Positions 2,892 to 10,111 of a stretch of DNA of 21,665 nt are shown here, piece after piece (within the stretch, counting starts at the first letter, position 1; each line of letters opens with the position of its first letter). Origin of the DNA: a virus; the IMG/VR virus record IMGVR_UViG_3300007760_000102, positions 1-21,665 of that record; one strand, 5' to 3'. The notes under the pieces are model-generated. The model did not search any database, had not been told where the DNA came from, and worked only from the letters and a program-made list of their open reading frames with translations. Made by a program: the position numbers and the translations under genes.

Positions 2892-3724
2892 GAGTAGAAG
2901 AACTATTACAAGAAAAACGGTTAGATTTTAAAGTATCTGGAAGGGATTATTTAGTAAAATGTCTTAATCCAGAGCATGAAGATACTAACCCTAGTATGAG
3001 AATTGACAATATAACAGGAATTTTTCATTGCTTTTCTTGTGGTTTCAGGGGAAACTTGTTTAAGCACTTTGGAGCAGCAGCTAACTACTTAGAAATAAAA
3101 AGACAAAAATTAAAAGAAAGAATTGAAGAAACTAGAGCATCAAGTATAGGACTTGAATTTCCAAAAGGATTTACTCCTTATGTTGGAAATTGGAGAGGTA
3201 TTAAACCTGAAACTTATAAAGAGTTTGATGCATTCTTACACCACGATAGGAGTTTTAACGGAAGAATTGTTTTTCCTATTCGTGACATTACAGGGAAAGT
3301 GGTAGCTTTTAACGGTAGACATATGACTATGACGGAGACGCCAAAGTACTTAATATATCCTCCCCAAGCCGTACTACCACTTTATCCCTCTAGTGTAAAA
3401 CCTATAAAAGGCAAGGTAATTCTTGTCGAAGGGATTTTTGATATGATAAATCTTTTCGACAAGGGCTTATCTAATGCAGTTTGTTGTTTCGGAACAAACA
3501 ATGTAGATGAAGATAAACTCGCTATTTTGAAAATGCAAAATATTGACGGAGTAGATATAGTATTTGATGGTGATGAAGCAGGCCAAAAAGCTGCTGAAAA
3601 TATAAAAGGGTTAGCCGAAAGACTGGGATTAATAAGTAGAAATGTGAACTTAGGTGACCATATCGATCCCGGCGCGCTAGCTGAAAGTAAAGTAATTAAT
3701 TTAAAGGAGAGATTATATGAGTAA
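2888..3724 (+). CDS. DNA primase (CHC2 zinc finger plus TOPRIM)
   Basis: The 278-residue protein would synthesise RNA primers for lagging-strand DNA synthesis. The N terminus has a CHC2-type zinc ribbon: C25 and H30 in 'CLNPEHEDTNPSM', then C48 and C51 in 'FHCFSCGFRGN'. The C-terminal half has a TOPRIM fold, with E181 in 'ILVEGIFDM' and the metal-binding D227 and D229 in 'VFDGDEAG'. It is much shorter than DnaG and lacks the C-terminal helicase-interaction domain; in outline it matches the primase half of T7 gp4. Translation is likely coupled to the micro-ORF before it (ATGA). It overlaps the methyltransferase by 8 bases. Confidence 0.92.
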   Translation: MRVEELLQEKRLDFKVSGRDYLVKCLNPEHEDTNPSMRIDNITGIFHCFSCGFRGNLFKHFGAAANYLEIKRQKLKERIEETRASSIGLEFPKGFTPYVGNWRGIKPETYKEFDAFLHHDRSFNGRIVFPIRDITGKVVAFNGRHMTMTETPKYLIYPPQAVLPLYPSSVKPIKGKVILVEGIFDMINLFDKGLSNAVCCFGTNNVDEDKLAILKMQNIDGVDIVFDGDEAGQKAAENIKGLAERLGLISRNVNLGDHIDPGALAESKVINLKERLYE

Positions 3725-4478
3725 AAATATAATTGAAGATAAAAAAGAAGATTTGATAAACCAATTATTCTTAGGAGATTGTTTAGAGATAATGGAGACT
3801 TTTCCAGCAAATTGTGTAGACATGGTTCTATGTGACCTACCCTATGGAACAACTAAGCTTAGGTGGGACACTCCCATTGACTTAGAAAAAATGTGGAAAC
3901 TTTTAAATAAAGTTTGTAAAGAAAGGGCGGCCATGGTATTTACTGCAGCTCAGCCTTTTACTTCTTCACTTGGAATGAGTAATATAAAAAATTTAAAGTA
4001 CGAATGGGTATGGGAAAAACCTCAAGGAACTAACCCACTTAATGCAAAGGTTATGCCCTTAAAAAATCATGAAAACATATTAGTTTTTTATAGAAAAGCT
4101 CCTTCATATAACCCCCAAATGACAGAAGGAGCACCTATTAAAGCTTATGAAGCAAAAGGTGGTCAAACACTTGGAGAAACACAAGGAAGTTTAAAATCTA
4201 TGCATAAAGAGAATAAAGGTACTAGATATCCTAAAACAGTACAAAAGTGGGCACAAGAAAGAACGGGACTTCACCCTACACAAAAGCCTGTACCTATGTT
4301 TAAGTATTTAATTGAAACTTATACCAATGAAGAAGATATAGTCTTAGATATGACAATAGGATCGGGAACTACAGCTATAGCAGCTTTAGAGTGTAATAGA
4401 AGTTTTATAGGTATAGAATTAGATGAAACTTATTTTGATGTAGCAGAGGAGAGGATAAAAAAATGGAACAACAAATAA
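3717..4478 (+). CDS. Site-specific DNA methyltransferase (N6_N4_Mtase family)
   Basis: The 253-residue protein is an amino-methyltransferase acting on DNA adenine N6 or cytosine N4 with S-adenosylmethionine. Catalytic motif IV is DLPY (D40-Y43, in 'VLCDLPYGTTKLRWD'), followed by a central target-recognition region, then 'HPTQKP' (186-191) and the SAM-binding motif I 'LDMTIGSGTT' (210-219) with 'FIGIELDETYF'. The order IV before I is that of the beta class. AAGGAG at 3704-3709 is a good ribosome binding site. A nuclease-like gene overlaps its end by 16 bases, which suggests a restriction-modification-like pair. Alternatively it is a solitary phage methylase protecting phage DNA from the host. 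The target base and site cannot be read from the sequence. Confidence 0.92.
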   Translation: MSKNIIEDKKEDLINQLFLGDCLEIMETFPANCVDMVLCDLPYGTTKLRWDTPIDLEKMWKLLNKVCKERAAMVFTAAQPFTSSLGMSNIKNLKYEWVWEKPQGTNPLNAKVMPLKNHENILVFYRKAPSYNPQMTEGAPIKAYEAKGGQTLGETQGSLKSMHKENKGTRYPKTVQKWAQERTGLHPTQKPVPMFKYLIETYTNEEDIVLDMTIGSGTTAIAALECNRSFIGIELDETYFDVAEERIKKWNNK

Positions 4479-5104
4479 TAGGGGATTGGCAAGTAGACGG
4501 CTGGGAAGGCGGAAAAAGAATAGGCGATCAATGGCGCAGATTTTGCTCAGATAGAGTAGATGAATTTTTAGATCAGCTAAATGGTGAGGAAGTCGCAGAT
4601 AAGTGGCTTTTAAGTAGATATAATTATTGGCAGAAGCAAGGTAATAAGGCAAAAGGTATTACAGGCGAGAAGTTCATAGAGTATATGTTGACTTTTAAGT
4701 ATGAAAACGATCACACAGGAGGAGCTAGTATGGCTTATGACTTATGTTTCAATGGAAATAAGATAGAAGTCAAGACTAGTTTTGCTAATAAACAAAAGGG
4801 AATAATAAAGCACGACAATTTTAAGTGGCAACATATAGGTATGCACAAAGATTGGGACTATATTGTTCTTATTGGAATAAACCCTGAAGAAGAGCTTGGC
4901 CATGTTCGTAGAGGTTGGAGAGATAACCCACAGGAAGTCAATATTGTCTGGCTTAGTAGGAAACAAGTGGAAGATTTTATTAAGCAAGGACTAATAACCC
5001 CTCAACAAGGAGGACAAGACGGTGGAAACGACGATTGGTGGACAATACCAAGTTTCTTTAAGGATATTAATTATGGGTACGACTTTTACGAAGTCCCATT
5101 TTAG
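4463..5104 (+). CDS. Putative PD-(D/E)xK endonuclease paired with the methyltransferase
   Basis: The 213-residue protein is not matched to a named family. It has a plausible PD-(D/E)xK nuclease core: D93 in 'MAYDLCFNG', then E102 and K104 in 'KIEVKTSF', followed by a hydrophobic strand 'WDYIVLIGIN' as in many restriction enzymes. A preceding helix contains 'GEKFIEYML', with a Glu at the usual place upstream of the core. The N terminus and C-terminal tail are unusually rich in tryptophan and glycine. It overlaps the methyltransferase by 16 bases and is the last gene before the polA promoter. The likely role is cleavage of DNA that lacks the partner's methylation, for example host or competing phage DNA. 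A resolvase or repair nuclease is an alternative. Confidence 0.6.
   Translation: MEQQIIGDWQVDGWEGGKRIGDQWRRFCSDRVDEFLDQLNGEEVADKWLLSRYNYWQKQGNKAKGITGEKFIEYMLTFKYENDHTGGASMAYDLCFNGNKIEVKTSFANKQKGIIKHDNFKWQHIGMHKDWDYIVLIGINPEEELGHVRRGWRDNPQEVNIVWLSRKQVEDFIKQGLITPQQGGQDGGNDDWWTIPSFFKDINYGYDFYEVPF
4502..4518 (+). repeat. 17-base direct repeat, copy 2
   Basis: Exact copy of the string at 2254-2270, here encoding WEGGK near residue 15 of the putative nuclease. Confidence 0.7.
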
Positions 5105-5125
5105 AAGGGAGAGGTTATATAGTTC

Positions 5126-5154
5126 TTGACATGGCACTTAAAATTTGATATAAT
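5126..5154 (+). promoter_or_regulatory. Consensus extended sigma70-type promoter for polA
   Basis: TTGACA at 5126-5131, a 17-base spacer and TATAAT at 5149-5154 match the bacterial housekeeping consensus exactly, and TG at 5146-5147 makes an extended -10. The expected start of transcription, 7 bases after the -10, falls on the A of the polA ATG at 5161, so the mRNA may be leaderless. The spacer is similar to that of the promoter at 10083. Use of host RNA polymerase is implied. Confidence 0.88.
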
Positions 5155-5160
5155 ATATAA

Positions 5161-7431
5161 ATGAAAATTGCACTTATTGAAACAAAACCAAGCGTAACAA
5201 ACTATGAAGATAGGTTTGAGCGAGCCTTTGAGTTCGATAGGTATGCTTTATGTTCAGACAAAAGCAAGAAAAAAGTTTTAAAAGCAGATGTTGATATAGA
5301 TATTAACATAGATGAATACGACTGGGTTATTCTAGTTGGATCCGAAGCGCTGAAAATGTATACAAAAGCAACTTCTGTTACAGAGTACAGCGGCAGGGTT
5401 ATAGATGACAAATTTCTGCCTGTTATTAACCCTGCTATGCTTTCTTTTAAACCTGAGGCGCAACCTTTATGGGACGAAAGTAAAAGTAATATAATTAAAT
5501 TTATTAAGGGAGATTTGAAAGTAGTAAAAGTAACTGAAGAAAATGCTATAGGTATTGATAATGTAGAAGATTTATATGAATTTTTAGAAAAAGCATTAAA
5601 GCATGAAAATAAGTTTATAGCATTAGACTCGGAAACAACAGGACTGTATCCAAGAGACGGACATATGATTGGATTCAGTATGTCCTACGAAAAAGATAAA
5701 GGAGCATACATAATTACAGATATAATAGATGAAGGTATTGAAGTACTTATGCAAACTATATTTAATACTAAGTATGTAGTATTTCATAATGCAAAGTTTG
5801 ACTTAGCATTTTTTGAATACCATTTTAATTTTAAGTTTCCAAGATTTCATGATACCATGCTTCTTCATTATTGTTTAGAGGAACAGCCTGGAACACATGG
5901 ACTAAAACAACTTGCGATGAAATATACTCCTTATGGAGACTATGAAAAACCTTTGCAAGATTGGATAGATGGATATAGAAAATCTCATAGAATACTTAAA
6001 AATGATTTTCAATGGGATTCAATACCATATGAAATAATGAAAGACTATGCTGCTATGGACGCAGTATGTACTTTACTTATATTTGAAAAGTTATATCCAG
6101 CAGTTAGAAAAAATAATAAGCTATGGTCAGTATATGAAAATATACTAATACCAGCGTGTAGATTTTTAACAGATGTTCAAGATACAGGAGTTCCTTTCGA
6201 TAAAGATAGACTAGCAAAAGCTGCTGTCTTAATGCAAGAAGATATTGATGAAGCAGTATCTAAACTATATGAATTTGATGAAGTACAAACTTTTGAAAGA
6301 TTACAAGAGAAAGAATTTAATCCTAATAGTACAGTACAGTTACGAACATTATTATTTGATTACGCTGGATTAAAACCCTCTAAAAAGACTGCGACAGGAG
6401 CTTATTCAACAGACGCAGAAGTACTAAAGAAACTTTCTCAAGAACATGAAATACCAAAACATATTCTTAGTATTAGACAAAAGTCAAAAATCAAGAATAC
6501 TTATTTGGATAAAATTTTACCTCAGCTAGACGGAGATAGTAGATTAAGAACAGGGTTTAATATTCATAGTACAACTTCTGGAAGATTATCTTCTAGTGGT
6601 AAAATGAATATGCAACAAATACCTAGAGATAATCCTATTGTAAAAGGTTGTATAAGAGCAAAAGAAGGAAATAAAATAGTTGCTATGGATTTAACTACAG
6701 CAGAAGTTTATGTTGCAGCGGTACTTTCTGATGATATAAACTTACAGAAAGTTTTTCAAGATGGGGGAAACTTTCATAGTAGTATTGCGAAATTAGTATT
6801 TAATCTACCCTGTAATGTAGAAGATGTAGCAGAACACTATAAAACAGAAAGACAGATGGCAAAAGCTGTTACATTCGGAATAATGTATGGAGCAGGGCCT
6901 AGTAAAATATCTCAACAAGTAACACAGGACTCAGGAAGATACTTTAGTATTCAAGAGGCACAAGAAGTTATTGATGATTATTTTAGACAATTTCATAGAC
7001 TAAAGAGTTGGATTAGTAGATGTGAAGCTCTTATTATGAATCATGGTTTTATTTATTCTCACTTTGGAAGAAAAAGAAGATTACCTAATGTAAGGTCAGA
7101 TAATAAAGGAGTAGCTAGTCATGAAGTTAGGTCAGGATTAAACTTTTTAGTTCAGTCCATAGCTTCAGACATAAATTTATTAGGCGCAATTGATACTCAT
7201 AATGAGTTGAAACGTATGCCTTGGGGTTCCGAAGCAAAAATATTTGCATTAGTACATGATTCAATATTAGCAGAAGTATCAGAAACAGCAGTAGATGCTT
7301 ACTGTTATTTAGTAAGAGAATGTGTTCAAAAAGACAGAGGATTAAGTATCCCAGGCTCTCCAGTAGGTTGTGACTTTGATATAGGTGATGACTATTCATT
7401 TGGAAAGTTTGAGGATAAATATGATTTATGA
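5161..7431 (+). CDS. polA: Family A DNA polymerase with 3'-5' exonuclease
   Basis: This 756-residue protein is the phage replicative polymerase. The DnaQ-like proofreading domain has Exo I 'LDSETTG' (D156, E158), Exo II 'HNAKFD' (N210, D214) and Exo III 'YAAMD' (Y296, D300). The polymerase domain has motif A 'MDLTTAEVYVAA' (D510, E515), motif B 'RQMAKAVTFGIMYG' (R564, K568, F572, Y576) and motif C 'LVHDSILAEV' (H699, D700). Position 572, equivalent to E. coli F762, is Phe as in Pol I, not Tyr as in T7. There is no 5'-3' exonuclease domain; that activity is a separate gene at 14095. Residues 1-120 form an extra domain resembling a degenerate uracil-DNA glycosylase fold ('VILVGSEALKMY', 'LPVINPAML'). 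No Shine-Dalgarno is present; the promoter abuts the ATG. The next internal Met is at residue 66, so this start is the likely one. Confidence 0.95.
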   Translation: MKIALIETKPSVTNYEDRFERAFEFDRYALCSDKSKKKVLKADVDIDINIDEYDWVILVGSEALKMYTKATSVTEYSGRVIDDKFLPVINPAMLSFKPEAQPLWDESKSNIIKFIKGDLKVVKVTEENAIGIDNVEDLYEFLEKALKHENKFIALDSETTGLYPRDGHMIGFSMSYEKDKGAYIITDIIDEGIEVLMQTIFNTKYVVFHNAKFDLAFFEYHFNFKFPRFHDTMLLHYCLEEQPGTHGLKQLAMKYTPYGDYEKPLQDWIDGYRKSHRILKNDFQWDSIPYEIMKDYAAMDAVCTLLIFEKLYPAVRKNNKLWSVYENILIPACRFLTDVQDTGVPFDKDRLAKAAVLMQEDIDEAVSKLYEFDEVQTFERLQEKEFNPNSTVQLRTLLFDYAGLKPSKKTATGAYSTDAEVLKKLSQEHEIPKHILSIRQKSKIKNTYLDKILPQLDGDSRLRTGFNIHSTTSGRLSSSGKMNMQQIPRDNPIVKGCIRAKEGNKIVAMDLTTAEVYVAAVLSDDINLQKVFQDGGNFHSSIAKLVFNLPCNVEDVAEHYKTERQMAKAVTFGIMYGAGPSKISQQVTQDSGRYFSIQEAQEVIDDYFRQFHRLKSWISRCEALIMNHGFIYSHFGRKRRLPNVRSDNKGVASHEVRSGLNFLVQSIASDINLLGAIDTHNELKRMPWGSEAKIFALVHDSILAEVSETAVDAYCYLVRECVQKDRGLSIPGSPVGCDFDIGDDYSFGKFEDKYDL

Positions 7432-7900
7432 CGCACTAGAATTTCCTCTATTTGTTGTACATACAGACAATGTAGAACTAATAGACGGGATTTTATGGGT
7501 GGAAGATCAAGTATTGGACGATACAAATATGAAGGGAGATACTATAGGAATAAGAAGATTAAAAAGTCCTATGAAAAGTATGTACCCTTTAAAGTACATG
7601 GTTGATGATATACCATCTCTACTGAATCATCAAGGGAAGCATTACATTGATAATTCAGGCTTCTTTTTCACTAAGGAAAAGAAACATAAAGTAGATTTAA
7701 AATATCATAAGATATTGAGAGTAGAGAAAAAAACTATAGCGAGTACGCTATGGATTAAAGATTGCCCTTTCCCCTTTACTCTTAAAAGGCCTCTGCCCGA
7801 GAATGCTTCTTGGGCAGGGATTCTTCATAGGGCAGGAATTCCGTGGATTTTATATGATATATCGGAGGAAAAGAAAAAGGATACTTGGAGAAAAGTATGA
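7421..7900 (+). CDS. Unknown phage protein between polA and a ParB-like gene (159 aa)
   Basis: I do not recognise this protein. The ATG at 7421 is preferred to ATG codons further upstream because GAGG at 7411-7414 is correctly spaced before it; it overlaps the polA end by 11 bases. It looks like a soluble mixed alpha/beta protein. Blocks that stand out are 'MVDDIPSLLNHQGKHYID', 'SGFFFTKEKKHK' and 'ASWAGILHRAGIPWILYDI' near the C terminus. No catalytic signature, cysteine cluster or membrane segment is visible. Its position inside the replication operon suggests a replication- or metabolism-linked role, which is inference from context only. Its stop overlaps the next start as ATGA. Confidence 0.75.
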   Translation: MIYDALEFPLFVVHTDNVELIDGILWVEDQVLDDTNMKGDTIGIRRLKSPMKSMYPLKYMVDDIPSLLNHQGKHYIDNSGFFFTKEKKHKVDLKYHKILRVEKKTIASTLWIKDCPFPFTLKRPLPENASWAGILHRAGIPWILYDISEEKKKDTWRKV

Positions 7901-8298
7901 AAGTAAATATGTTAACCGCAGATTTGGAACTACTTGAAGAAAAATTTGAAATTGAAAGTATAAAACTTATAGATATATTTCAAATAGTAGGTCATAGACA
8001 TGAACAAGCAGGATATAATGCTCTTTTTGATGATATTGCAGAAAATGGATTTAAAAATCCAATTATAGTAATTCCTAATAATCAGTATAACTATGATCTA
8101 GCTTTAAGACAAGTTAAGTCTAAGTATGTAAATAAATGGGAATACTTTAGAAGATGGATTTGTATGTATGGAAATCAAAGAATGGATATTGCTTTAAAGT
8201 TAGGAATATATACGCTAGAAACAGTAATAACACCTAATATTGAGTGGGCTCACGCAGCTCATCTTAAGCTAAATGGAGATCCCGTAAGTAAGTTATGA
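7897..8298 (+). CDS. Second ParB-like domain protein (133 aa)
   Basis: Start chosen at ATG 7897, which overlaps the previous stop (ATGA) and has TTGGAG 6 bases upstream. The protein resembles the ParB N-terminal fold: 'LFDDIAENGFKNPIIVI' (43-59) followed after an insertion by 'YGNQRMDIALKLGI' (91-104). The pairs GFKNPI and GNQRM correspond to GMKNPI and GSQRI of the protein at 2336-2830, which supports common descent, but here the two halves are separated by about 35 residues. No HTH is present. Function is unknown; a small NTP- or DNA-binding regulator or a diverged nuclease is possible. Confidence 0.6.
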   Translation: MKVNMLTADLELLEEKFEIESIKLIDIFQIVGHRHEQAGYNALFDDIAENGFKNPIIVIPNNQYNYDLALRQVKSKYVNKWEYFRRWICMYGNQRMDIALKLGIYTLETVITPNIEWAHAAHLKLNGDPVSKL

Positions 8299-10082: not shown

Positions 10083-10111
10083 TTGACACGGGCTTCAAAA
10101 TTTGGTATAAT
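10083..10111 (+). promoter_or_regulatory. Consensus extended sigma70-type promoter for the SSB-SbcCD-RNR block
   Basis: TTGACA at 10083-10088, a 17-base spacer and TATAAT at 10106-10111 match the consensus exactly; TG at 10103-10104 makes an extended -10. It closely resembles the polA promoter, including the shared AAATTTG run and ATA after the -10. The predicted transcription start is near 10118. No terminator is evident between it and 17909, so it could drive all genes up to there. Confidence 0.88.

Follow-up and report, generated by a model that had tools for sequence, protein, structure and literature searches.

The question raised by this locus is what a marine phage might do with a DNA methyltransferase (MTase) gene that overlaps the gene for a small nuclease in the midst of its replication genes. 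The stretch of DNA analysed (hereafter the window) comprises 21,665 nucleotides of the virus record IMGVR_UViG_3300007760_000102. The earlier note had proposed a compact restriction-modification (R-M) pair carried by a phage, and this proposal is supported by the PD-(D/E)xK fold of the nuclease, by co-occurrence and co-divergence of nuclease and MTase, and by loss of the predicted site in relatives that have no MTase beside the nuclease. We estimate a probability of roughly 77% that the pair is a phage type II R-M module, that the recognition site of the family is most likely TCGA and that carriers protect themselves either by the MTase or by loss of the site. In such a module, the PD-(D/E)xK restriction endonuclease would cut unmethylated host or rival DNA, the MTase would modify the same site and spare the phage DNA, and a carrier phage would have to methylate the site, as predicted for the window, or, with the nuclease alone, to lose essentially every TCGA. 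For the window enzymes we infer cleavage, methylation and TCGA specificity, directed against the host and/or co-infecting phages.

Both open reading frames lie on the plus strand, start with ATG and overlap by 16 bp (4463–4478), as had been described. The first (3717–4478) encodes the predicted cognate modification enzyme of 253 amino acids. Sequence and alignment place its catalytic motif IV, DLPYG, at residues 40–44 (3834–3848) and its SAM-binding motif I, DMTIGSGTT, at residues 211–219 (4347–4373; GSGTT at 215–219). This order of motif IV before motif I and a match to Pfam N6_N4_Mtase (PF01555, E 7.7e-30) identify a beta-class amino-methyltransferase, in agreement with the earlier assignment, and the protein also matches phrog_67 (3e-72) and the PADLOC model MTase_II PDLC03251 (1.5e-71). 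The second reading frame (4463–5104) encodes the predicted type II restriction endonuclease of 213 amino acids. The setting in a replication operon was likewise found as proposed, with a DnaB-like helicase and a primase upstream of the pair and a DNA polymerase downstream. The closest relatives of this polymerase (up to 46% identity) are encoded by phages of 104–128 kb that infect Aeromonas, Proteus and Vibrio and which we take to be T5-like. A consensus sigma-70 promoter with a perfect extended −10 element (12/12 match with TG; predicted from sequence) lies on the plus strand at 5126–5154, between the pair and the polymerase gene, and the pair therefore probably closes its transcription unit. 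A second perfect 12/12 sigma-70 promoter with extended −10 is present in the window at 10083–10111, and ParB-like reading frames with weak PHROG matches flank the pair on both sides (2336–2830 and 7885–8298). In P-SSM7, AG-345-E15 and several other loci, a family of about 400 amino acids with a DG-HR motif is located just 5′ of the nuclease-MTase pair (e.g., L008 9828–11021 and L005 1128–2330).

The motif D93-x8-E102-V-K104 on which the nuclease assignment had been based is present exactly. E69 (4667–4669), the catalytic-helix glutamate, lies in helix 61–80 of the AlphaFold model, the catalytic aspartate D93 (4739–4741) stands at the start of a strand, and E102-V-K104, the (D/E)xK element (4766–4774), falls within strand 99–111; all are on the plus strand. 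Among 62 distinct relatives, K62, K64, G65, E69, D93, E102, K104, D130, Q181 and G184 never vary, and invariance of E69, D93, E102 and K104 in all 62 is far more than would be expected of a chance motif. The canonical layout of PD-(D/E)xK enzymes is E / D / ExK (PMC11347163), and the four residues are placed accordingly in the models. The model of the window nuclease is of moderate quality (pLDDT 67.5), with NhoI, EcoRV, NaeI, ThaI (3ndh) and DpnI as top PDB matches. A relative that is 29% identical to it (L021) was modelled with a pLDDT of 91.7 and matched I-Ssp6803I at the top, besides NhoI, Eco15I, SPARDA nucleases, Hjc, 3ndh and EcoRV. As the matches are mostly PD-(D/E)xK proteins with modest TM-scores (0.3–0.6), membership in the superfamily is secure and no subfamily can be assigned. 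Structure prediction, suggested beforehand as a check, thus recovered the fold, and several of the closest structures in the PDB are restriction endonucleases.

The nearest restriction-enzyme folds in the PDB belong to the BisI family (NhoI, Eco15I), likewise small PD-(D/E)xK enzymes. BisI enzymes require methylated GCNGC and use QxK (PMC11347163), whereas the window nuclease has ExK (EVK) and a co-encoded MTase that would have to protect rather than license. With EVK instead of QxK, no detectable sequence similarity and no match in PDB sequence searches, it was not placed in the BisI family.

The nuclease had also been described as unmatched to any known restriction family, which does not hold. 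It matches the PADLOC REase_II model PDLC03515 (2.1e-5), as do 38 of the 39 members of the nuclease alignment (best 4.2e-14) and the nuclease of S-ShM2 (1.4e-22); for Synechococcus phage S-BM3, the database record itself names the homologue a 'restriction endonuclease'. It further matches phrog_6927 (7.8e-18), annotated 'unknown function', and no entry in Pfam or NCBIfam. As judged by these profiles, the window nuclease belongs, as a distant member, to a family already covered by PADLOC, the one that contains the cyanophage proteins of PHROG 6927 / T4-GC_685, from which it differs by an identity of only about 30%, some 35 additional residues and the reverse order of the MTase. For the PHROG 6927 / T4-GC_685 family, no description of a recognition site, a pairing or a mode of self-protection was found.

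The first tblastn query against GenBank phages recovered four groups (P-SSM7, ACG-2014f, S-SSM4/S-SSM6b and AG-345-E15); with a closer query, S-RIM14/S-SSM2/S-ShM2 and S-BM3 were recovered as well. Relatives of the nuclease were located at more than 180 places in viral contigs: IMG/VR yielded 182 (80 kept) with one query and 160 with another, besides 22 places for a divergent sister nuclease family. No relative was detected in the plasmids searched or in two pattern-limited scans of species genomes, scans of a kind that does not prove absence from bacteria. So far, the family has been found mainly in marine phages. In one viral contig (L076), two nuclease-MTase pairs (682–2066 and 4983–6250) are separated by about 3 kb, and the two belong to different families.

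A search for conserved co-occurrence in other phages had been suggested. When nucleases were clustered at about 85% identity, an MTase was encoded close by on the same strand in 31 of the 49 groups, compared with 18 of 283 other reading frames of at least 100 amino acids at the same loci. The partner MTases are of several kinds (DLPYG, DPPYF, DPPYN and once Eco57I-type NPPF), and the common arrangement has the nuclease first with an overlap of 7 nt, in contrast to the order MTase-nuclease of the window. In a maximum-likelihood tree of 71 MTases, the window MTase falls into a clade of 15 (support 100/98) in which every member is paired with a nuclease, as is each of the nine members of another clade; the loci were largely collected via the nuclease, but none of those collected via the window MTase belongs to the paired clade. 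The distances of nuclease and MTase correlate with r 0.87 over 24 non-redundant pairs (0 of 5000 permutations) and with 0.72 without two outliers; common descent of the phages would by itself produce part of this correlation. Purifying selection acts on both families (median dN/dS values of 0.10 and 0.07), and this holds for lone nucleases too. The two genes are thus linked and co-inherited, as in type II R-M systems.

This pairing bears on the reading of the nuclease as a free-standing homing endonuclease. I-Ssp6803I, which heads the fold matches of the high-confidence L021 model, is a homing enzyme encoded in an intron, and the nuclease occurs patchily among ACG-2014f isolates. However, unlike I-Ssp6803I, the nuclease is accompanied by an MTase, in one MTase clade without exception, and by depletion of a 4-bp word, which a long homing site would not clear from a whole genome. 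We therefore regard a homing function as very improbable.

Nucleases with no adjacent MTase are termed lone here. A search with PF01555 in 22 lone-nuclease contigs gave no MTase above the cut-off, PF01555 MTases occur elsewhere in S-SSM4 and ACG-2014f, and D12-type MTases are encoded elsewhere in G003, S-ShM2 and S-BM3; hence the term covers adjacency only. An MTase with the motif SPPYF beside the nuclease in L022/L027 was considered as a cognate partner and is probably not one, because TCGA is hardly found there either; these loci were counted as lone.

An indirect indication of a common site comes from tetranucleotide counts, given here as observed over expected, with expectations derived from trinucleotides. 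S-SSM4, with a lone nuclease and a genome of 180 kb, contains no TCGA where 327 are expected, and G003, also with a lone nuclease, contains 3/262, all three inside 1 kb. Other lone-nuclease contigs showed 0/85, 0/103, 0/53, 0/94, 0/28, 0/62, 0/25 and 5/25. When all 4-mers were ranked against controls, TCGA was the most depleted in lone-nuclease contigs and the sole one with a ratio of 0.21 or less in all ten. By comparison, the paired genomes P-SSM7, G025 and G024 have 256/336, 360/387 and 113/358. A TCGA ratio of 0.02 or less was found in 9/12 lone clusters, 1/23 paired clusters and 1/15 controls (Fisher's test, 2.8e-5 for lone versus paired and 7.5e-4 for lone versus controls, kinship ignored). 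In the nuclease tree, the lone state appears on several separate branches, and at least seven changes are forced.

A different cause of such a pattern would be restriction of TCGA by the hosts, with MTase-carrying phages keeping the word because they are protected from the host enzyme. Loss of palindromes is a known phage response to host R-M (PMC6286503), and CCGG is near absent from almost all sampled cyanophages, with or without this nuclease. However, 11 of 12 nuclease-free cyanomyovirus records retain TCGA at a ratio of 0.59–0.82, the exception being ACG-2014d, and lone-nuclease branches arose several times. In addition, each of the two nuclease families is matched by a word of its own: in S-ShM2, S-SSM2 and S-BM3, which carry the sister nuclease, the top depleted word is TTAA (0/590, 0/188 and 74/515). 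Retention of TCGA in nuclease-free relatives and the match of two families to two words make host restriction alone insufficient, and we consider this explanation unlikely.

Other words were tried as the site. GATC, suggested at first by the presence of D12 enzymes, is not lost in lone-nuclease genomes. Depletion of CCGG and AGCT was rejected as a signature of the nuclease because the controls have the same depletion. Further palindromes are virtually missing from particular phages, namely CCGG from most of the Kyanoviridae genomes examined, GTAC from S-RIM44, GCGC from P-TIM40 and P-SSM7, and GGCC from S-CAM7; these absences may stem from host systems or from other nucleases carried by phages.

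Several genomes depart from the TCGA pattern. The paired clusters L019, L031 and L084 have almost no TCGA. In ACG-2014f KJ019103, the nuclease looks intact and no complete MTase adjoins it, yet TCGA is retained (309/388). Its gamma-class MTase appears to be split, with the motif-I half adjoining the nuclease (L006 2513–2917) and the NPPY half 100 kb away (L092 2198–2944), and the split enzyme may protect this phage. Conversely, ACG-2014d (L340, KJ019047) has no nuclease homologue and no TCGA (0/208). It encodes an unrelated protein of 198 amino acids with an EKEVKPK stretch (record positions 29562–30158), which could be an unrelated nuclease and whose gene comes directly after the counterpart of the helicase gene that in S-SSM4 stands before the lone nuclease. 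The helicase is near that of S-SSM4 (79%), so that a recent loss or replacement of the nuclease is possible. Apart from these exceptions, TCGA is lost without an adjacent MTase and kept in most genomes with one, an indirect pointer to a common site, and it is the most likely recognition site of the family.

For the window enzymes themselves, TCGA specificity is a prediction, because the nuclease shares only about 30% identity with other family members and because the TCGA level of the window phage (51/78 over 43 kb) is similar to that of controls. This level would be expected for a methylated site and is not diagnostic. On nuclease residues 181–191 (5003–5035, plus strand), the window protein bears QQGG-x4-NDD, a conserved signature that accompanies TCGA loss among relatives, whereas QHGG-x4-SGT or QHAG-x4-QEL accompanies TTAA loss; the signature may accordingly have a role in site recognition. 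The pair may also be an R-M pair in which the diverged enzymes have a recognition site different from TCGA. The low identity of the window nuclease to relatives with the TCGA signature and the specificity shift to TTAA in the sister family would fit such a change, as would stronger depletion of other palindromes: in the 43-kb contig IMGVR_UViG_3300007508_000011, from a phage closely related to that of the window, the words ACGT (8/59), CCGG (3/33) and GATC (52/112) are more depleted than TCGA over the same 43 kb. Restriction by the host could account for this depletion, as could a different site for the window enzyme. Against it, the window MTase is 55–62% identical to MTases of the TCGA clade, QQGG-x4-NDD is common to the window and the TCGA relatives, and divergent lone relatives such as L062 (43–44% to the main clade) are also free of TCGA. 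A different site is plausible but less likely than TCGA.

Homologues that occur widely without a neighbouring MTase had been named as evidence against an R-M pair. Such homologues do exist, in about a third of the clusters. However, it is their genomes from which the predicted recognition site has disappeared, and this makes restriction a stronger reading rather than a weaker one. The same site loss argues against a replication or repair enzyme of the Holliday-junction resolvase type with the MTase as an independent anti-restriction gene, an idea that the Hjc resolvases among the fold matches and the location in a replication operon might suggest. The exclusive pairing of one MTase clade and the REase_II match likewise speak against it, and close T4-like relatives manage without the nuclease; a resolvase role is accordingly highly improbable. 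Within the R-M module that we favour, the MTase is probably dispensable: lineages without it, with genomes as large as 180 kb, seem to have purged essentially every TCGA (TTAA for carriers of the sister nuclease) and would be self-immune by sequence alone.

Virus-encoded type II R-M has been reported before, with chlorovirus systems attacking host DNA and marseillevirus systems attacking rival viruses (PMC7253447). These systems (e.g., CviAI, GATC) belong to eukaryotic viruses and recognise GATC, and the window pair would work like them. The TaqI R-M system shares the predicted recognition sequence. TaqI recognises TCGA, and M.TaqI is a gamma-class enzyme, unlike the window MTase with its beta order. 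TaqI did not appear in the PDB sequence searches or among the listed fold matches.

The new part of these findings is the two-way self-protection, by an MTase or by total site loss; in the literature searched, with partial coverage, no report was found that ties a phage's own nuclease to the loss of its site. Restriction-site avoidance in phages is usually taken as a scar of host defence. If the present reading is true, part of the extreme palindrome loss in cyanophages would be self-inflicted and not an answer to host defence; such scars would be read anew where they are tied to the phage's own nuclease, and recognition sites could be read from genomes. The analysis also provides site predictions (TCGA and TTAA) for small, frequently cutting enzymes and their cognate methylases that can be tested at the bench. 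Only 9 complete R-M systems were reported among 831 phage genomes, with 12 solitary restriction endonucleases (PMC4176335); against this near-absence, the family would represent recurrent phage-borne R-M, and it suggests how lytic phages may distinguish their own DNA from that of a host or a rival.
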